Below, one piece after another: positions 133 through 7,691 of a stretch of DNA of 9,674 bases. This stretch comes from Candidatus Tectimicrobiota bacterium (GTDB lineage Bacteria > JACPSX01): positions 1-9,674 of the forward strand of contig JACPSX010000173.1 in the NCBI GenBank assembly GCA_016193065.1, in the 5' to 3' direction. The stretch's first letter is position 1. Each line of letters starts with the position of its first letter. The notes below the pieces were generated by a model. The model was not told where the DNA came from. It saw only the letters and a list, made by a program, of their open reading frames with translations, and searched no databases. The position numbers and the translations under genes are program-made.

Positions 133-1071
133 TCAATCAAACAGAGAACTGACGGAGGACCGATCGTGGATGCGGCGGATCGCCTCACCGAACAAATGGG
201 CTACCGAAAGGACCTTGAGCTTCGGGCACGCTTTTGTCTTTTCCCCTAGGGGGATCGTGTTGGTGACCACGATTTCCTTCAGCGGGGATTTGCACAGTCG
301 CTCGATGGCCGGGCCTGAGAGTACCGGATGAGTGCAGCAGGCAAAAACCTCAAAGGCGCCGTTTTCCAGCAGGGCGTTGGTCCCCTCCACCAGGGTGCCG
401 GCCGTGTCCACCATGTCATCCACGATCAAAGCGGTTCTTCCCTCCACATCGCCCACGATGTGAGCCACCTTGGCCAGGTTCTTACCAACCCGGCGCTTGT
501 CGATGAAGCCCACTTTTGCCTTGAGACGCTTCGCGTAGGCTCTGGCCCGCTCCACCCCCCCTGCGTCCGGGGAGATGACGATCAGGTTCTTGATATGCTT
601 CTTCCGGAAGTATCTCAGGAAGACCGGGCTGCCGAACAGATGATCCACAGGGACATTGAAGAAACCCTGAATCTGGCCCGCGTGCAGATCCATGGTGACG
701 ATCCGGTTGGCCCCGGCGGCGGTCAGAAGATCGGCAACCAGTTTGGCCGTGATGGGAACCCGCGGCTCAACCTTGCGGTCCTGGCGCGCATACCCGTAAT
801 AGGGGATGACGGCGGTGATCGTGTCGGCGGAGGCCCTCTTGAACGCGTCGATCATGATCAGGAGTTCCATAAGGTGTCTGTTCACGGGGGTGCAGGTGGG
901 CTGAATGATGAAGACGTCGCGGCCCCTGACGTTTTCCTGAATCTGCACTCCGATTTCCCCGTCGCTGAAATCGGAGGCGTCAATCTTCCCCAAGGGTTTT
1001 CCCAGATAGTCTCCAATCTTCCGGGCCAATTCGGGATTTGCCCGGCCCGAGAACACCTTGATCCCGACCAC
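133..1071 (-). CDS. prs: ribose-phosphate pyrophosphokinase (PRPP synthetase)
   Basis: Transfers pyrophosphate from ATP to ribose 5-phosphate to make PRPP, the cytoplasmic precursor of purines, pyrimidines, NAD, histidine and tryptophan. The 312 residues are close to the usual class I length (E. coli about 315). Visible landmarks are FSDGEI (35-40), the YGYARQDRK segment (92-100) of the ATP site, the family signature [11 protein letters not shown] (128-138), the flexible catalytic loop with DKRRVGK (191-197) and the PRPP-binding motif [12 protein letters not shown] (216-227). The start is a GTG at 1071, chosen because AGAGGAG lies 9 nt upstream and MVGIKVFSG is the normal family N-terminus. 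It lies 60 nt after ispE and 20 nt before rplY on the same strand, so it is an internal operon gene. No key residue looks missing. Confidence 0.97.
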
Positions 1072-1131
1072 CGCGTCTGTCTCCTCTTTTCTTTCTCTAG
1101 AGCCTGCAGGTACTGTGTGCTCGCGTGCTCT

Positions 1132-2025
1132 TTAAGGGATCTCTACCATGCGGACAGCCTTTTCCGCCTGGGTCAGGGTCACCACCTGGAATACGGACCA
1201 CTCCGGGCTCCGGTTCAATGCCTGATAGGCAGCCTGTGCAGAGGTGAGACGAGGAAAGAGTCCAAAAACGGTGGGGCCGCTTCCTGACATGAGCGCCACT
1301 TCCGCTCCCAAGGAGAGCAACTCTCCTTTCAGTGCCCTGACGATGGGGTGTGGCCCGGTCACCACCTCTTCGAGATCATTCACCAGGCTTTTGCCCAGCT
1401 CCTGATATTCTCCCTTCTCCAATAACAAGCGGAAAAGGTTAATATTTGCTGCTTGTCTTGTCAACTCCAATTTCACCTGGCCGTAGACCCAGGCCGTGGA
1501 CAGGGAAAACCGGGGGGTGACCAGGATCAACGCCAGGGGATCGGGGGCTGCAAGGGTTTCCAGAACGTCCCCCCTGCCTCGCCCCAGCGCCCGGGGCCCG
1601 TTTAAAAAGAAGGGGACGTCGCTGCCCAGCTCCCGGGCCATTTGCGTCAGAGTTTGCGGAGGGAGATGGGCCTGCCACAGTTCGTTCAAGGCCAAGAGGG
1701 TGGCGGCTCCATCGCTGCTTCCGCCGCCCAGTCCCGCTCCCGCCGGGATCCTCTTGTCCAGGTGGATATGAACCCCGGCGCTGGCAAGGGCCTTGGTCTT
1801 CATCATCGTCCAGGACCGGTAGACCAGATTCTCCTCACCCCGGGGGATTTCCGGCCAGTTGCAGGTGAGCTCGATTCCTGCCGGGCCCTGGGTAAAGAGC
1901 AGATGATCGTACAGTCCCACCATCTGGAGGATGGTCTCCACTTCATGGTAGCCGTCCGGCCTGCGGGCGAGGATCTTGAGGCCAAGGTTCACCTTGGCGG
2001 GGGTCCAAACTTCCAGACCTTTCAT
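1132..2025 (-). CDS. ispE: 4-diphosphocytidyl-2-C-methyl-D-erythritol kinase
   Basis: GHMP-superfamily kinase that phosphorylates CDP-methylerythritol in the MEP pathway of isoprenoid synthesis, so the organism makes IPP by the non-mevalonate route. The 297 residues fit the family (about 280-300). Visible are the N-terminal PAKVNLGLKI with the conserved Lys11, the glycine-rich ATP loop PAGAGLGGGSSDGAATL (94-110), the catalytic-type Asp136 in GSDVPFF and the third GHMP motif LMSGSGPTVFG (245-255). The ATG at 2025 is the only reasonable start: an in-frame TAG lies two codons upstream and the PAKVN motif begins at residue 9. The ribosome-binding site is weak; GGAACGG lies about 12 nt upstream, inside the inverted-repeat element that abuts this gene. 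The gene probably once followed the lipoprotein gene by 3 nt. Confidence 0.96.
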   Translation of the reverse strand: MKGLEVWTPAKVNLGLKILARRPDGYHEVETILQMVGLYDHLLFTQGPAGIELTCNWPEIPRGEENLVYRSWTMMKTKALASAGVHIHLDKRIPAGAGLGGGSSDGAATLLALNELWQAHLPPQTLTQMARELGSDVPFFLNGPRALGRGRGDVLETLAAPDPLALILVTPRFSLSTAWVYGQVKLELTRQAANINLFRLLLEKGEYQELGKSLVNDLEEVVTGPHPIVRALKGELLSLGAEVALMSGSGPTVFGLFPRLTSAQAAYQALNRSPEWSVFQVVTLTQAEKAVRMVEIP

Positions 2026-2028
2026 GGA

Positions 2029-2148
2029 CTAGTACCGTTCCAACTCGATGCGCCTAATTTGATTGGCCTGATTTGATTGGCCTGCCTGCCAGCAAGAACA
2101 TGGACCGCGAACCGAGAAAATGGCCGAAAATCGTTGGAACGGCACTAG
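2029..2148 (-). mobile_element. MITE-like inverted-repeat element, copy A (with flanking CTAG)
   Basis: A 112-bp body (2033-2144) lies between two CTAG tetramers (2029-2032 and 2145-2148). Read on the minus strand it starts TGCCGTTCCAACGATT and ends GAGTTGGAACGGTA, giving 12-bp terminal inverted repeats with one mismatch (a G:T pair). Including CTAG, the ends form a 16-bp stem. A second copy with the same ends and CTAG flanks lies at 7584-7691 in the opposite orientation. There is no room for a transposase, so the element would be non-autonomous. It fills the gap between the lipoprotein gene, whose TAG stop is within the right CTAG, and ispE, whose ATG is 3 nt outside the left CTAG. CTAG-type 4-bp target duplications are known for IS5-family elements, but assigning a family from this alone is speculation. 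It could instead be an RNA-level regulatory hairpin. Confidence 0.7.
2057..2084. repeat. 14-bp direct tandem repeat inside element copy A
   Basis: The unit ATTTGATTGGCCTG occurs twice, head to tail and without mismatch, in the interior of element copy A. It is followed by a further CCTGCC. The second element copy has nothing like it, so it belongs to the variable interior. It may be a simple slippage duplication or a pair of protein-binding sites. Confidence 0.85.
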
Positions 2149-2960
2149 TCCAGGTCCGTGATCCGGCTCCCCTGGGGCGGGACCAATTCAAAGAGTGAAG
2201 GGTCCAGGTTCCCGTTCAGCGTCACCTGACCGTAGGCTAGAGATAGGCGGGTGTTCTTCCGGGGCAGTGTGAAGACCAGGCGCCGGGGGAAGAGGATTCC
2301 GTCCACAAGGCCGTAATCCTCCAGCTCTGCTTCCAGGATCGTGTCCCCCTCGTGATCGTAGCGCGCGGCCCTTACCACCACGAGCCGGGCGGGATCGATC
2401 CATAACCGCCTTTTCCCTTCCTCCTCTGGAAAATGGAGGTCGACCACGTAGGTCTTGAGGGCCGGGTCGTAGCCGAGGGGTCCCCACCGGGCTTCCGGAT
2501 CGCCGCTCAAGTCCGTGCGGATCAGGCGGTTGACCTCCTCTATTTCCAGGGGAAAACCCAGCACCCGGGAAAAATTGAAGGAGTTGGCTCGCCCCCGCAC
2601 ATAGCGTCTTGCGGCCACCGAATACGCCGAGAAGCGCCCGTCCCGGATCACCAGAATGAGAAGAGGAGGCCCGAAAGGGCTCAACATTTCCAGGCGCATG
2701 GCCTTTGCACCCTGCAGGAGGATTACCTCTTTACCCGAAACAGTTTTGCCGTCAGACACCAGCGAAAAATCGGCCAGAGCCGTAAGATTGAGGATTTTTT
2801 TCTGGCTCGACAGGGCGGCTTGCAAGTCTCGGGAATCGGAAAAGGGCAAAGAGGGTGGGACCTGGGCAATGGGAGGAAGTTCCACGCGCGCGCAAGCGCC
2901 GAGCAGCCCGGCCAGGAGGATCAGGAAAAGGCTCTTGAGCAGCAAGGGAGCCCGCGGCAC
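2145..2960 (-). CDS. LolB/DUF4292-like outer-membrane lipoprotein
   Basis: From a GTG at 2960 the protein has 271 residues and a textbook lipoprotein signal: MPRAPLLLKS, then a leucine-rich stretch, then lipobox LLGAC with the lipidated Cys at residue 23. The mature part is predicted beta-rich. Its segment SPFGPPLLILVIRDGRFSAY is typical of the LolB/DUF4292 group, which takes part in lipoprotein insertion or transport at the outer membrane. Position between a TPR gene and ispE-prs is where lolB sits in Pseudomonas and, for lolB-ispE-prs, E. coli. The start is uncertain. The frame stays open to a GTG at 3086, which would overlap the TPR gene by 97 nt. A CTG at 2993 overlaps the TPR stop (CTGA) and has GGGGAGG 5-6 nt upstream. 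GTG 2960 gives the cleanest signal peptide but lacks a clear ribosome-binding site. The TAG stop lies in the CTAG that borders element copy A. Confidence 0.82.
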   Translation of the reverse strand: MPRAPLLLKSLFLILLAGLLGACARVELPPIAQVPPSLPFSDSRDLQAALSSQKKILNLTALADFSLVSDGKTVSGKEVILLQGAKAMRLEMLSPFGPPLLILVIRDGRFSAYSVAARRYVRGRANSFNFSRVLGFPLEIEEVNRLIRTDLSGDPEARWGPLGYDPALKTYVVDLHFPEEEGKRRLWIDPARLVVVRAARYDHEGDTILEAELEDYGLVDGILFPRRLVFTLPRKNTRLSLAYGQVTLNGNLDPSLFELVPPQGSRITDLD

Positions 2961-2989
2961 TTCGGGAACGGTGGGGGCAGGGCGAGAAA

Positions 2990-4759
2990 TCAGGGGGTCC
3001 TCCCCTCTTTGATCTCCTTTTTGACGCGCTCCAGCTTCTCGGTAATACCTGACTCGTCCGGCTTGATCTTCAAGGAGCGCTCCCACTCGGCTGCGGCCTG
3101 CCGGGTCTTGCCCAGCTTGTAGTAGACGTCTCCCAGGTGATCCCGGATCACCGGGTCATCCGGAACGAGTTGGGTTGCCCGCTCCAGTTCTTTCACCGCT
3201 TCCTGGATCATTCCTTTTTTAAAATAGACCCAAGCCAGGCTGTCGATGAAGTAGCCGTTTTCGGGCTCCAGCTCCAGTGCCTTCTGGATCAGATTCAGGG
3301 ACTCGTCCAGGCGCACCCCCCGGTCCGCAAACAGGTAACCGGCATAGTTGTAAGCGCTGGCATTCTTGGGGTTGATCTCCGTGGCGCGGAACATGGCCTC
3401 CACGGTTTTATCGAAGTTTCCCAACTTGTCGTACGCGACCCCGAGGTTGAAATAGTACTTGTCCTGCCCTGGCTTCAGAGCAATTGCTTTCTCCAGGGTG
3501 GAGGCCGCCTCCGTATATTGGTTCTGTTCGGTAAAAGCAATTCCCAGGTAGAAGTGGGCATCCGCGTTGTTGGGATCGGCTGTCACGACCTCCTGAAAGA
3601 GAGGGACCAGATCTTTTTCGCGCTTCATTTTTCTATATACCTGGGCTGTTTGCAGGCGCGATTCCAGGTCCTTGGGTTCTTTCTTGAGCAGGATCTGCAG
3701 CTCCGCCAGCGACTCATCATAGCGCTCCAGCATCTCGTAGCAGGCGGCCACGTAACGGCGCACTTCCCGGTGATCCGGACGGGCGGCCAGGACGAGGCGA
3801 AAGCCCTCGAGGGCTTTCAGGTAGTTCTTCTGATCGAAGTAAATCAGCGCGATTCGCAGCCGGGTGTCGAAATCATCGGAATCTTCCCTTAAAACTCCCT
3901 CGTACTCTTGCAGGGCGCTGTCCAGTTTGTCCGTTTCCACGTAAAGCTGTCCCAGGCGGCGGTGTAAGTCCTGGTCTTCCGGGAAGAGGGCCAGCGCCCG
4001 CCGGTAAGTCTCCTCGGCCCGGGTAAAATCTTTGCGCTGCTGGTAGAACTGGGCCAGGGCCTTGTAAGCCGGGATCAGGTCTGGCTGTACCTCGATTGCT
4101 TTTAAGAACTTGGCCTCCCCTTGCGCTACCTGATTTAAAGCCAGGTGCATGCGCCCCTGATAATAGTAAGCCAGCCCCGAATTGGGCTGGCGCTGGGAGA
4201 GCCGCTCGAAAACCGCCAGAGCCTTGGCAAAGTCCTTCTGCTGAATGTACAGCCCCCCGAGGTACAGGTAGGCTTCGGCTCGATTGGGGTTTAATTCAAT
4301 GGCCCGGGAATACTCCCGCACGGCTTCTTCGATCTTTCCCGTGGTGGCGTAGAGTCCCCCCAGGAGCACCCGGGCTTCGGCGAAGTCGGGTTTAATCGCC
4401 ACGGCCCTTTCGGCGGCCTGGACCGCCTCGGCCACCTTCCCTTTCTTAACTCGCGCTGAGGCCAGGGCCATGTAGGTCTCCGGGGCGGGGTCAATGGTCA
4501 GGGCCCGTTCGTAGTTGGCGATGGCCTCATCCCAGTTTCCCGATAGCTCGGCCATCGTGCCCACGGAAAAGTAGTAGTAGGCTTGGGCCTGGAACAACTG
4601 GCGGAAAAAGAGCCTGGAATATCCCGAGCCTGTTTCCGAAGACTCGGCCTCCGCAGCATCCCCAATTCCTCTGCCTGCCACTGCGACTATGGACAGGACC
4701 ATCACGAATACGATCAGCCAATGCCGCGAGCCAAGCCGCCAGCCCTGCATGCACCTCAT
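2990..4759 (-). CDS. secreted protein with about 15 tetratricopeptide repeats
   Basis: 589 residues. An N-terminal signal peptide is visible: a basic start (MRCMQGWRLGSRHW), a hydrophobic core about residues 14-28 and AVA or DAA cleavage options. There is no lipobox Cys, so a periplasmic location is likely. From about residue 60 to 567 come some 15 consecutive 34-residue TPR units with the usual spacing of Gly/Ala, Tyr, Ala and terminal Pro (for example ...ALTIDP, ...AIELNPN, ...AIALKPG, ...ALELEPE). One unit near residue 470 is a residue longer. TPR arrays are scaffolds for protein binding; the partner is unknown. In Pseudomonas a TPR protein gene (PA4667, from memory) likewise precedes lolB-ispE-prs. 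ATG 4759 has GGAGGGG 6 nt upstream and overlaps the dciA-like stop as ATGA, so translation is probably coupled. A second ATG at 4750 is a less likely start. Confidence 0.93.
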   Translation of the reverse strand: MRCMQGWRLGSRHWLIVFVMVLSIVAVAGRGIGDAAEAESSETGSGYSRLFFRQLFQAQAYYYFSVGTMAELSGNWDEAIANYERALTIDPAPETYMALASARVKKGKVAEAVQAAERAVAIKPDFAEARVLLGGLYATTGKIEEAVREYSRAIELNPNRAEAYLYLGGLYIQQKDFAKALAVFERLSQRQPNSGLAYYYQGRMHLALNQVAQGEAKFLKAIEVQPDLIPAYKALAQFYQQRKDFTRAEETYRRALALFPEDQDLHRRLGQLYVETDKLDSALQEYEGVLREDSDDFDTRLRIALIYFDQKNYLKALEGFRLVLAARPDHREVRRYVAACYEMLERYDESLAELQILLKKEPKDLESRLQTAQVYRKMKREKDLVPLFQEVVTADPNNADAHFYLGIAFTEQNQYTEAASTLEKAIALKPGQDKYYFNLGVAYDKLGNFDKTVEAMFRATEINPKNASAYNYAGYLFADRGVRLDESLNLIQKALELEPENGYFIDSLAWVYFKKGMIQEAVKELERATQLVPDDPVIRDHLGDVYYKLGKTRQAAAEWERSLKIKPDESGITEKLERVKKEIKEGRTP

Positions 4760-5253
4760 GGTTTTCCCCTCCGCACCATACTATACCCCCTGACTAGAAA
4801 GCCCCGGATCAACCCTGCCGCCTCCGGATCGGAAATCCGGCCCGAAAGGCCCTCGATTTCCTCGATCCCCCCCTCCGTGAGAGGCAACGTCGGGCGGTGG
4901 GCACCCGCAAGGCGGGTACCCGCCGCTGGCGCCGTGGCCTGGCCCTCAATTTTTCCTATCCGGAAGAAAAGTCTGGAAATCTTCTCCCCTTCCGGAAAGC
5001 GCCGCAGCTTTTCCAGAATCTGGTCCTGCAAGAAGTGCAATTCCTGCAGCCAGACCGGATCTGCGACCTCGATGAACAACATCTGTCCCTTCACTCCGGC
5101 TACCCGGCTGATGGCCGCGATGGGACCTCCCACCGCCTGCGGCCAGATTTTCTGGATCTTGTACTGGCGCAGGTCCTGATCGAATCCCAACCGGGAACAG
5201 GAATTTTCCAGGATCTCTCCCAGCCGGATGAATCGACCTCTTTTCTCGCTCAC
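4756..5253 (-). CDS. DUF721 / DciA-like protein
   Basis: 165 residues from a GTG at 5253. The GTG overlaps the plsC stop as GTGA and has a weak AGGGA about 5 nt upstream. The frame is open further back to 5376, but that would overlap plsC by 127 nt and lies before any family sequence. Residues about 8-95 match the DUF721 pattern: LGEILENSCSRLG, then KIWPQAVG with the conserved Trp and Val-Gly, then LFIEVADPVWLQEL and a helix LQDQILEKLR. DUF721 includes DciA, which helps load the replicative helicase DnaB in bacteria lacking DnaC/DnaI. Many DUF721 proteins are unstudied, so the DciA role is inferred. The tail after residue 100 is Ala/Gly/Pro-rich and not recognisable. The position between a lipid acyltransferase and an envelope TPR gene tells little about function. 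Confidence 0.82.
   Translation of the reverse strand: MSEKRGRFIRLGEILENSCSRLGFDQDLRQYKIQKIWPQAVGGPIAAISRVAGVKGQMLFIEVADPVWLQELHFLQDQILEKLRRFPEGEKISRLFFRIGKIEGQATAPAAGTRLAGAHRPTLPLTEGGIEEIEGLSGRISDPEAAGLIRGFLVRGYSMVRRGKP
4911..4924. repeat. perfect 14-bp palindrome in the dciA-like gene
   Basis: GGCGGGTACCCGCC is its own reverse complement. A related GCGGGTGCCC (minus strand) lies just beside it, at about 4900-4911. Both fall in the poorly conserved Ala/Gly-rich tail of the DUF721 protein (AAGTRLAGAHR). It may only reflect GC-rich low-complexity coding, but it is a strong hairpin candidate in the mRNA. Confidence 0.6.
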
Positions 5254-5960
5254 CGGGTCCCTACCATTTCGGGCTCCGCCACTCTCCCGATCAAATTGCC
5301 CTGGCGGTGCTTGCCCAGTTGAGATGCGATGGCTGCCATGATCCTGCGCAGGATCTCCTCGTAGGTTTCCTTGCACGCCGGTAGGTGGTAGCAGGATTCC
5401 AGATCCACGGCGGGTCCAAAATCAAGGCGCACCTTGCGAAACAGGCGCGGCAGGGACTTTCCTTTTGGCAAGATTTGCTGGGTTCCCGTGACACCCACGG
5501 GAATGACCACAGGCCGGGACTCAAACACCAGGCGGCCCACGACCCGGTTTCCTTTCCCGAGCTCGCCCGTGGTGCTGCGGGTCCCCTCGGGAAACATCAT
5601 TACCCTGCGGGTTCGCAGCAGATCCAGGAGCTTTCGAATGGAGGCCAGATCCCGGCCATTTCGCCGCACGGGGAATACACCCCAGGACCTCAGGAGCAGG
5701 CCTAAAGCAGGGTTGCGGAATAGTTCTTCTTTGGCCGGAGCGTTCAGGGGGGAGAACGGGAATCTCTTCAGGACCGCCCAGGCCAGCAGCAGTGGGTCCA
5801 GCAAGGAGACATGGTTGGCAGCCAGGAGGTGCCCTCCCGTCCGGGGGATATTTTGACCTCCGGTTATGGTGAGTCGCATGGTGCAGCGGACCAGGGCCGA
5901 TATCACCACGACAGAGAGGAGCATCCAGCTTTTCCTCAACTGTTCTTTGAATCTCGCCAT
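5250..5960 (-). CDS. plsC: 1-acyl-sn-glycerol-3-phosphate acyltransferase
   Basis: Membrane-associated PlsC-family enzyme that acylates lysophosphatidate to phosphatidate, a central step of phospholipid synthesis. The 236 residues are typical. The catalytic NHxxxxD motif is NHVSLLD (49-55). Motif II appears as GVFPVRR (94-100), motif III as FPEGTRS (123-129) and motif IV as VIPVGVTG (152-159). Residues about 11-24 (SWMLLSVVVISALV) form a hydrophobic N-terminal membrane anchor. ATG 5960 has GGAGGGACC directly upstream, an excellent ribosome-binding site. It is the first gene after the promoter at 6051-6079, with a leader of roughly 80 nt, and its stop overlaps the dciA-like start. The exact acyl acceptor cannot be read from sequence; a lyso-ornithine-lipid or other lysophospholipid acyltransferase is possible. 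Confidence 0.93.
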   Translation of the reverse strand: MARFKEQLRKSWMLLSVVVISALVRCTMRLTITGGQNIPRTGGHLLAANHVSLLDPLLLAWAVLKRFPFSPLNAPAKEELFRNPALGLLLRSWGVFPVRRNGRDLASIRKLLDLLRTRRVMMFPEGTRSTTGELGKGNRVVGRLVFESRPVVIPVGVTGTQQILPKGKSLPRLFRKVRLDFGPAVDLESCYHLPACKETYEEILRRIMAAIASQLGKHRQGNLIGRVAEPEMVGTR

Positions 5961-5969
5961 GGTCCCTCC

Positions 5970-5991
5970 GCTGCCTTTCCCGGCAGGCAGC
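5970..5991 (-). promoter_or_regulatory. hairpin just upstream of the plsC ribosome-binding site
   Basis: On the minus strand GCTGCC (5991-5986) pairs perfectly with GGCAGC (5975-5970) around a 10-nt loop. The 3' arm ends directly against the GGAGGG Shine-Dalgarno of plsC. In the leader RNA it would stack beside the ribosome-binding site without covering it. It may tune translation or be chance; there is no U-run, so it is not a terminator. Confidence 0.4.
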
Positions 5992-6050
5992 CATTTCCTC
6001 CCGGGAGTGCTCTCCCCTTGTCGGCACGAAACCCGGGGAAACCTGACTGA

Positions 6051-6079
6051 ATTATAGGGGGAGAGTGGGGGCTCTGCAA
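6051..6079 (-). promoter_or_regulatory. sigma70-type promoter of the plsC operon
   Basis: On the minus strand a perfect -10 box TATAAT (6056-6051) follows a -35-like TTGCAG (6079-6074) with the optimal 17-bp spacer. The -35 matches TTGACA at 3 of 6 positions. Transcription would start near 6044, leaving a leader of about 84 nt before plsC. It lies in the 147-bp gap after the aryl-CoA ligase gene, and no other strong promoter is seen downstream on this strand, so it probably drives plsC through rplY. Confidence 0.65.
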
Positions 6080-6107
6080 GGCTGATTCCCGGTTCCCTGC
6101 GGTTGGC

Positions 6108-7460
6108 TCAGGATTTCGGGCGATGGTCAAAAAAGCGTTTGGCCTTCAATTCGTAGCGGGGCAAGGCGCCTGGCGCGCAGATTTCGACTCCGATTTTGAC
6201 CAGAATCCGGCTGTACAGGGTTTCTTCCGCCTTCTTTTGCAGTTCCAGGTACCCCGAGGCCGGGGCATCCTGGGCGGCCTCGACTTTCACGGAAACCTCG
6301 TCATTGAGCGGGCCGCGGGAAATGTGGATCTCGTAGTGGGGGGATAGGCCTGCAATGGTCCCCAGCAGGGCCTCGACCGCCGTCGGATAGAGGTTGGACC
6401 CCTTGATGATGACCATGTGGTCCGTCCTGCCCCGCACCCCGTCCCGGAACAGCGTCCAGGTGCGGCCGCACTCGCACACCGAGTAGGAGGGGCGCACGAG
6501 ATCGTGGGTCCGGTACTTAATGACCGGCTGGTAGAGTTGGGCGTAACTGGTCACCAGGTTCTCCCCAGCTTCCCCCTCGGAGACGGCCTGCCCGGTTTCC
6601 GGGTTCACGACCGTGGAGTAAGCAAAGTCCTCGGCCAGGTGCACCCCGAGCTGGTGGGGGCAGGTGGGGCAGATGGCACCGACCTCGCCAATTCCGTATT
6701 GTTCGTACGCTTTCGCCCCCCAGGCGTCCTCGATCGCTTTGCGGGTGGAGGGGATGCTGACCCCCGGCTCCCCGGAGAGATACATGACCTTGATTCCGAT
6801 ATCGCGCAGGTGAATCCCCATTTCCCGGGCCTTTTCCACCATGTAGAGGGCGTAGGTTGGCGTGGACAAGAACACCGTGGGCTTGTATTCCAGGAGCTGC
6901 TTGAGGCGCATCTCGGTGGACAGACCGCCTCCGGAAAAGACGGTCCCTCCGATCCTCCGCACCCCCCAGTAGGCGCTCCAGAAGCCGATGAAGGCCCCCC
7001 AGCCAAACGCAAAATAAAAGGTGTGCCCGGGGCGCAGCCCCAGCCCCCAGAAGCCGTACGCCCACTGGTCGCCGTAGCGGATCGAGTCGTAATAGGAGAC
7101 AGGAATGCCCAGGGGGACACCGGTGGAGCCCGAGGTCTGGTAGCGGTAGAGGAGGGTTTCTTCACCTAAAGCAGCCGCCTCGCCCCAGGGGGGGCGCTTG
7201 GCTTGAGCCTCCAGCAGATCCTTCTTGTCAATGGAGGGGACCAGGCGATCGAAGTCCTCCAGCGTGCAGATGTCTTCGGGCTTCAAGCCTGCCCGGTCGT
7301 AGAGTTTTCGGTACAAAGGCACCCGGTCGTAGGCATACCGGAGCAGCTTTTGAATCCGCTTCAAGTGCAGTGCGTTGATCTCCTCCCGCGGCATGGTTTC
7401 CGTGTAAGGATTCCAGTATTTACTTTGGAGAGAGACTTCGCTGAAGATGGATTGCTTCAT
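6108..7460 (-). CDS. phenylacetate-CoA ligase family (PaaK-type) protein
   Basis: 450 residues, slightly longer than PaaK (about 430). It belongs to the adenylate-forming superfamily, which activates a carboxylate with ATP and transfers it to CoA. The N-terminus YWNPYTETMPREE...RYAYDRVPLYRKLYD is characteristic of PaaK proteins. Further motifs are the P-loop TSGSTGVPLG (109-118), SGEPG (229-233), YEQYGIGEVG (252-261), the ATP-binding YRTHDL (316-321), GRTDHM (344-349) and a C-terminal Lys-rich ELKAKRFFD. Cys264, Cys267, Cys329 and Cys331 form two CxxC/CxC pairs that could bind a metal (inference). No other aromatic-degradation genes lie nearby, so the acid substrate is open: phenylacetate, another aryl acid or an unknown. 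ATG 7460 has a modest AGGGG about 8 nt upstream. No strong terminator is seen after it. Confidence 0.88.
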   Translation of the reverse strand: MKQSIFSEVSLQSKYWNPYTETMPREEINALHLKRIQKLLRYAYDRVPLYRKLYDRAGLKPEDICTLEDFDRLVPSIDKKDLLEAQAKRPPWGEAAALGEETLLYRYQTSGSTGVPLGIPVSYYDSIRYGDQWAYGFWGLGLRPGHTFYFAFGWGAFIGFWSAYWGVRRIGGTVFSGGGLSTEMRLKQLLEYKPTVFLSTPTYALYMVEKAREMGIHLRDIGIKVMYLSGEPGVSIPSTRKAIEDAWGAKAYEQYGIGEVGAICPTCPHQLGVHLAEDFAYSTVVNPETGQAVSEGEAGENLVTSYAQLYQPVIKYRTHDLVRPSYSVCECGRTWTLFRDGVRGRTDHMVIIKGSNLYPTAVEALLGTIAGLSPHYEIHISRGPLNDEVSVKVEAAQDAPASGYLELQKKAEETLYSRILVKIGVEICAPGALPRYELKAKRFFDHRPKS

Positions 7461-7527
7461 GGCTAGGCCCCTGATGGCAAGCGAAACGAAAGTTGTTTGG
7501 GACTTCTTTTAGAAAATTTAGGTCCCT

Positions 7528-7533
7528 ATTATA
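7528..7533 (-). promoter_or_regulatory. probable -10 box of the PaaK-type gene
   Basis: A perfect TATAAT on the minus strand lies 67 nt upstream of the ATG at 7460, giving a leader of about 60 nt. No convincing -35 hexamer is found at 16-19 bp spacing, and it lacks an extended TGn, so an activator or an alternative start is possible. The surrounding 7501-7540 is AT-rich for this genome, as expected of a promoter. Confidence 0.45.
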
Positions 7534-7583
7534 ACCCAATCTTTGTGGGATCGGGGTTGATTCGCATGCCTCCCCATAATAGA

Positions 7584-7691
7584 CTAGTGCCGTTCCAACG
7601 ATTCGCACCGACTCTTTCGGGTCACAAGGTTGCAAGTGCTGCCACGATGCAGGCTGCTAGAATTCCCCGCGTTGAGTTGGAACGGTACTAG
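7584..7691 (+). mobile_element. MITE-like inverted-repeat element, copy B (with flanking CTAG)
   Basis: A 100-bp body (7588-7687) lies between CTAG at 7584-7587 and CTAG at 7688-7691. On the plus strand it begins TGCCGTTCCAACGATT and ends CGCGTTGAGTTGGAACGGTA. The first 16 bases are identical to copy A. The last 20 match copy A at 18 positions, and the last 14 are identical. Interior bases 7604-7667 show no clear similarity to copy A and have no 14-bp tandem repeat. They contain a small hairpin, GACTC-TTTC-GGGTC (7610-7623, one G-T pair). The element sits in the 270-bp gap between the divergent PaaK-type gene and corA, 39 bp before the corA start. Flanks outside CTAG differ from copy A, as expected for independent insertions. 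It encodes no protein. Confidence 0.7.
7655..7663 (+). promoter_or_regulatory. possible extended -10 promoter for corA inside element B
   Basis: The plus strand reads TGCTAGAAT: a -10-like TAGAAT (5 of 6 matches) preceded by the TGn of extended -10 promoters. A TTGCAA lies 22 bp upstream, too far for a normal -35. Transcription would start near 7670, about 60 nt before corA. A CATAAT at 7575-7580, just before the element, is an alternative, also without a good -35. Confidence 0.3.

Follow-up and report, generated by a model that had tools for sequence, protein, structure and literature searches.

A gene-less MITE family of about 100 bp that duplicates CTAG-like targets, often lies at stop codons and recurs across bacterial phyla

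Two short sequences in the window (the whole stretch of DNA analyzed here, 9,674 nucleotides, contig C140 in a draft genome, or MAG, of 2.9 Mb) are very probably copies of a MITE: an element of ~100 bp, gene-less, with 12-bp terminal repeats, inserted at CTAG-like tetranucleotides, presumably by a DDE-type transposase acting in trans. On sequence grounds, the element is genuinely mobile. This kind of element—a MITE with a 4-bp CTAG duplication—is already known; what is novel is a cross-phylum family, unusually widespread, that lands on stop codons.

When the sequence was re-read, the two copies, the four CTAGs and the common ends all lay where the first-pass annotation had placed them; together with the adjoining gene, these features are:

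2029..2032, no strand: left CTAG of element 1, a copy of the target duplication (from the sequence; 4-bp direct duplication assessed on 194 copies)
2033..2144, minus strand: element 1, 112 bp, ends TACCGTTCCAAC...GTTGGAACGGCA, in the opposite orientation to element 2
2145..2148, no strand: right CTAG of element 1; its minus-strand TAG serves as stop codon for the ORF 3086-2145
2145..3086, minus strand: host gene adjoining element 1, lipoprotein-like, with weak LolA_like and DUF4292 matches; it abuts the target and lies outside the element
7584..7587, no strand: left CTAG of element 2, a copy of the target duplication (from the sequence)
7588..7687, plus strand: element 2, 100 bp, ends TGCCGTTCCAAC...GTTGGAACGGTA (from the sequence and alignment)
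7688..7691, no strand: right CTAG of element 2 (from the sequence)

Both intervals, 2029-2148 (CTAG + 112 bp + CTAG) and 7584-7691 (CTAG + 100 bp + CTAG), enclose an element that holds no gene and has near-perfect 12-bp terminal repeats (TGCCGTTCCAAC), starting with TG and finishing with CA—the short, non-coding, terminally repeated form of a MITE. Imperfect similarity between the ends runs on past 12 bp to ~25 bp. Element 1 is longer than element 2 because of an internal tandem duplication of ~14 bp around 2058-2085, and the TAG within its right CTAG ends a 336-codon open frame. CTAG is scarce in the window as a whole (11 sites vs. ~35 expected from base composition, about three-fold), and the element flanks account for four of these 11 sites.

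Further copies are plentiful in the source genome. Its 2.9 Mb contain 30 exact matches to the 16-mer CTAGTRCCGTTCCAAC, vs. 0 for a reversed control pattern, and the shared ends are therefore not chance. With mismatches allowed, ~20 complete copies were found, most of them 107–109 bp including CTAG, which contradicts the first refuting condition of the first-pass annotation, an absence of further copies from the genome. Aligned over their full length, not just their ends, with 18 other copies from this genome, copy 1 falls in reverse and copy 2 in forward orientation; the two thus belong to one family in opposite orientation, as had been proposed, and are not a chance palindrome. Per alignment column, the mean identity between pairs of copies is 0.95 in each 12-bp end, 0.63 in the middle, and 0.91 and 0.84 in the CTAGs on the two sides. 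One pair of copies, on different contigs, has middles that are 96% identical and flanks that agree at chance level; a second pair, with middles at 92%, likewise has flanks at chance, and near-identical bodies are therefore found at unrelated positions. On contig C32 one CTAG is common to two copies. Among the genome's 58 listed relatives, all of the same domain, no copy was found. Another miniature family, related to this one, has ends TGCCGGTCCAAT and CTAG flanks; two copies of ~185 bp lie in the source genome (L059 401-586, L060 401-584), and many of its ends occur in another carrier genome, G059 (e.g., L369 7277 and 12110, L378 8799).

The target-site duplication was assessed on 194 distinct copies defined by their 12-bp ends alone. 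In 134 of them (69%) the two flanks match over exactly 4 bp, whereas each other length between 1 and 8 bp reaches at most 2%. CTAG stands on both sides in 109 of the 194 and on neither side in 46; among the latter, 25 have identical direct 4-mers (TTAG, CTGG, CTCG, CTAA, CCAG, CGAG, CAGG, and CAAG were seen) and one has an inverted pair. The target is thus YTAR-like, with CTAG dominant, TTAG and CTAA next and some CTGG, CTCG, and CCAG, and the duplication has the 4-bp length of the IS5 group. The 134 exact matches and the 25 direct pairs vs. one inverted pair are the target duplications of a MITE. As the flanking repeats are direct and 4 bp long, they exclude a palindrome kept by base pairing, duplication of TA only, and the 6-bp NCTAGN duplication of IS481. 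The first-pass annotation, which proposed a non-autonomous element that has terminal repeats of 12 bp and duplicates the 4-bp target CTAG, is accordingly supported: ~20 copies in the genome, exact 4-bp direct duplications, and empty sites (see below) all agree with it.

These flanks weigh on two readings that would assign the element to other families. That it is an offshoot of the IS481 family, which also targets CTAG, has in our judgment a small chance. The IS481-family element TnRErm46 inserts at CTAG, has ends that start with TG and has stop codons supplied by the CTAG (PMC6794481), and IS481-type transposases are present in seven of eight element-bearing genomes. Against this, flanks are identical over the 6 bp of an IS481-type NCTAGN duplication in 0 of 194 copies, none of 30 IS481 loci examined has element ends, and the carrier genome G062 has no match. 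A slim chance goes to an IS630/Tc1-mariner offshoot that duplicates only the TA inside CTAG. A preference of IS630 for TA within CTAG is described in work cited by PMC2170065, and the source genome holds a CTAG-flanked IS630-like element of ~1 kb with ends TGCACTGAC. This IS630-like element (contig C24; L310 966-1994 / L358 1072-2101) measures 1.02 kb, contains a 334-codon frame, has imperfect ends and is the genome's only DDE_3 match. Its terminal repeats, however, are unlike those of our element beyond TGC, and the carrier genomes G059, G062, and G066 have no DDE_3 match. Moreover, the 4-bp identity in 69% of copies departs from a 2-bp TA duplication, from which exact pairs such as TTAG/TTAG, CTAA/CTAA, CTGG/CTGG, and CTCG/CTCG are impossible.

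Filled and empty sites were compared on nested copies, i.e., elements interrupted by another copy. Several copies in G059 are interrupted in this way at an internal TTAG or CCGG/CCAG site. Specifically, when the insert and one 4-bp repeat are removed from four interrupted copies (178, 178, 281, and 211 bp), each closes to exactly 108 bp, and the closed sequences match the uninterrupted copy L399 at 93, 100, 104, and 102 of 108 positions (86–96%). More nested copies occur in G062 and G064, one of which, with CAAG/CAAG, also closes to 108 bp. The family thus has both the multiple dispersed copies and the filled and empty sites of a MITE. One and the same compound arrangement is present at both L341 and L349, which means either that compounds were mobile as whole units or that the internal TTAG has been targeted repeatedly. 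Inside some G059 copies, 25-bp end units and 45-bp units, each with a YTAR at its start or its end, are arrayed in tandem (L344 14850-15120, L346 10950-11205, L338 9560-9880). A truncated left half of the element lies at L399 9458-9530, its CTAG being the stop codon of a 276-codon frame. Nested copies suggest a way for middles to vary while ends stay fixed.

Beyond the source genome, a public scan (one genome per species; hits selected by exact 10-bp ends, a choice that inflates end conservation) returned at least 115 stretches with the element in MAGs whose titles name seven or more phyla, most of the stretches again 107–109 bp including CTAG. Titles among the matches listed include Methylomirabilota, Acidobacteria/Terriglobia, Beta- and Gammaproteobacteria, Gemmatimonadetes, Nitrospirae, Omnitrophota, and Armatimonadetes, and the carriers among these matches are, judged by titles, mainly soil or groundwater MAGs. 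Where just one contig carries the element, as in Armatimonadetes, a binning error could be the cause; genomes with many copies are not easily so explained. Ends number 203 (G059), 96, 66, 63 (G065), and 10 in five genomes, and one genome holds up to ~100 copies. No copies were found in the plasmid and phage collections searched, and one IMG/VR contig (L189) carries the element. The other viral-contig hits in IMG/VR lack CTAG and have a different inverted repeat, and so are not of this family; among them, L190, L191, L192, L193, and L196 have an inverted repeat of CCGTTCCAAC, with arms 100 bp apart, that recurs in related viral contigs. The end sequence of the element stands in no relevant paper. 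Reports of bacterial MITEs usually concern a single genus or a small number of related genera. A spread over at least seven phyla (by title), with ~100 copies in one genome, points to a family that is very old or that moves easily between lineages by horizontal transfer. Left unmasked, the element will confuse the annotation and assembly of carrier lineages.

A MITE usually, though not in every case, has ends in common with an autonomous element that provides its transposase. Such a partner was sought among five transposase families (PF01609, PF13546, PF01797, NF033577, and PF13358) in as many as 13 genomes that carry the element, each fetched locus being checked for element ends; these genomes are draft MAGs, ~40% of one genome was read, and PF13359, PF13586, PF13751, and IS3-type enzymes lay outside the search. 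Within the loci fetched, no full-length IS or transposase had matching ends, and the full-length IS with the same 12-bp ends that the first-pass annotation suggested looking for was thus not recovered. Neither these loci nor 1.17 Mb of G059, the richest genome, contain paired ends 0.6–4 kb apart around a transposase. None of the long end pairs at L231, L399, and L376 was an autonomous element on closer reading: they are separate copies, or a truncated copy beside ordinary genes. The IS5-type domain PF01609 is absent from seven of 12 element-bearing genomes and DDE_5 (PF13546, IS701) from eight of 10; the fetched PF01609 loci, like the four fetched for DDE_5, have no element ends. In the source genome itself, L073 (contig C242) holds two adjoining transposase genes, at 367-1779 (+) and 1981-3069 (-), one with a DDE_Tnp_1 match (IS1380-like by eye) and the other ISKra4-like by eye; neither carries element ends, and both were rejected as partners.

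The same loci and genomes speak to another type of mobilization, that of a REPIN or BIME, in which two inverted REP sequences are moved by a single-copy RAYT (Y1/HUH) transposase and no target is duplicated; we regard this as a minimal prospect. The single-strand HUH mechanism makes no target duplication, and a 4-bp direct duplication is present here. None of 30 fetched Y1_Tnp loci has an element end nearby, and G059 and G065, with their 203 and 63 ends, have no Y1_Tnp match. The appeal of this reading lies in the ~100-bp length, conserved ends, variable spacer and extragenic position that the element shares with REPINs (PMC3116915), and in ends that can form weak hairpins (by eye).

The MITE we describe is enriched at stop codons. 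We counted a copy when the TAG beside it terminates a reading frame that is open for at least 100 codons, such frames serving in place of called genes. By this measure, 16 of 20 insertions in the source genome lie at a frame-closing TAG, vs. 14 of 49 other CTAG sites (29%; P = 1e-4). The corresponding counts are 22 of 47 copies vs. 219 of 753 other CTAG sites in G059 (P = 0.014) and, across phyla, 65 of 90 insertions at the public loci vs. 128 of 346 other CTAG sites (37%; P = 2.5e-9); in G062/G064 they are 8/11 vs. 23/39, a small sample and not significant. Element 1 is itself such a case: the lipoprotein-like gene 3086-2145 takes its stop from the element's right CTAG. TAG can be read in CTAG on either strand, so an element that inserts at a stop codon disrupts neither the gene nor its stop. 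The enrichment arises either by selection (loss of harmful insertions) or by target preference. In either case, the link between CTAG and TAG suggests a simple way, open to testing, in which a parasite can fill a compact genome while its host's genes stay unbroken.

Position at gene ends could also be read as the mark of an immobile regulatory or terminator-like hairpin held there by selection, and copies do fold into hairpins (z about -2.5 to -5.5) and often lie directly 3' of genes; yet inverted ends of themselves make a hairpin, the middles are not conserved, there is no Rfam match, and empty sites, nested copies and direct target duplications leave this reading scarcely credible. A secondary role of the element in transcription or mRNA stability is possible.

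In the model that we propose for the MITE, a DDE-type transposase supplied in trans would bind the element ends and, by inserting the element at CTAG-like tetranucleotides through cuts staggered by 4 bp, bring about the duplication of CTAG. We infer this mobilizing enzyme from the duplication and the end structure. Most surviving copies are found at the harmless stop-codon sites. Copies also insert into one another's internal YTAR sites, giving rise to compound elements and tandem arrays of ends, and such nesting may help to account for variable middles beside fixed ends. A bolder version, which we consider unlikely, is that a cross-phylum, CTAG-landing family, whose target sequence itself provides the gene-end niche, is moved by a lineage of transposases so far unconnected with it. 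If true, numbers of up to ~100 copies without a detected co-resident parent would imply rare visiting transposases or an undescribed resident one.

Known systems share parts of this behavior. REPINs resemble the element in being ~100 bp long and mostly extragenic, with two inverted conserved ends and a variable spacer (PMC3116915); the element differs in its 4-bp target duplication and in having no RAYT nearby. TnRErm46/ISRe46 (IS481 family) likewise has a CTAG target and ends starting with TG, and it inserts at stop codons without breaking the gene it targets, whereas its duplication is the 6-bp NCTAGN, it encodes its own transposase and its end sequence is another (PMC6794481). The IS5 group of the IS5 family duplicates YTAR (PMC10359306). 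Our element is like it in its 4-bp duplication and YTAR-like consensus (CTAG, then TTAG, CTAA), and unlike it in that PF01609 is missing from most carrier genomes tested and the PF01609 loci fetched have no element ends. IS5 ends begin with GG or GA and those of the element with TG; because the ends differ and no IS5-type partner was found, we do not claim membership in the IS5 family. The nearest published element in behavior is MITEPsy1 of Pseudomonas syringae, which is 100 nt long, was trapped transposing, duplicates 4 nt at a CTAG or YTAA target and has been proposed to derive from IS5/ISPsy2 (PMC3189936). Both are gene-less, 100 bp long, duplicate 4 bp at CTAG/YTAA and lie partly inside other mobile elements. 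Their terminal repeats, however, are unrelated (GGAAGGTCTGAAAAAGCC in MITEPsy1 vs. TGCCGTTCCAAC here), and MITEPsy1 has a co-resident parent IS, whereas no parent of our element was found in the loci searched. MITEPsy1 is reported mainly in Pseudomonas and its relatives, whereas the element described here spans phyla.
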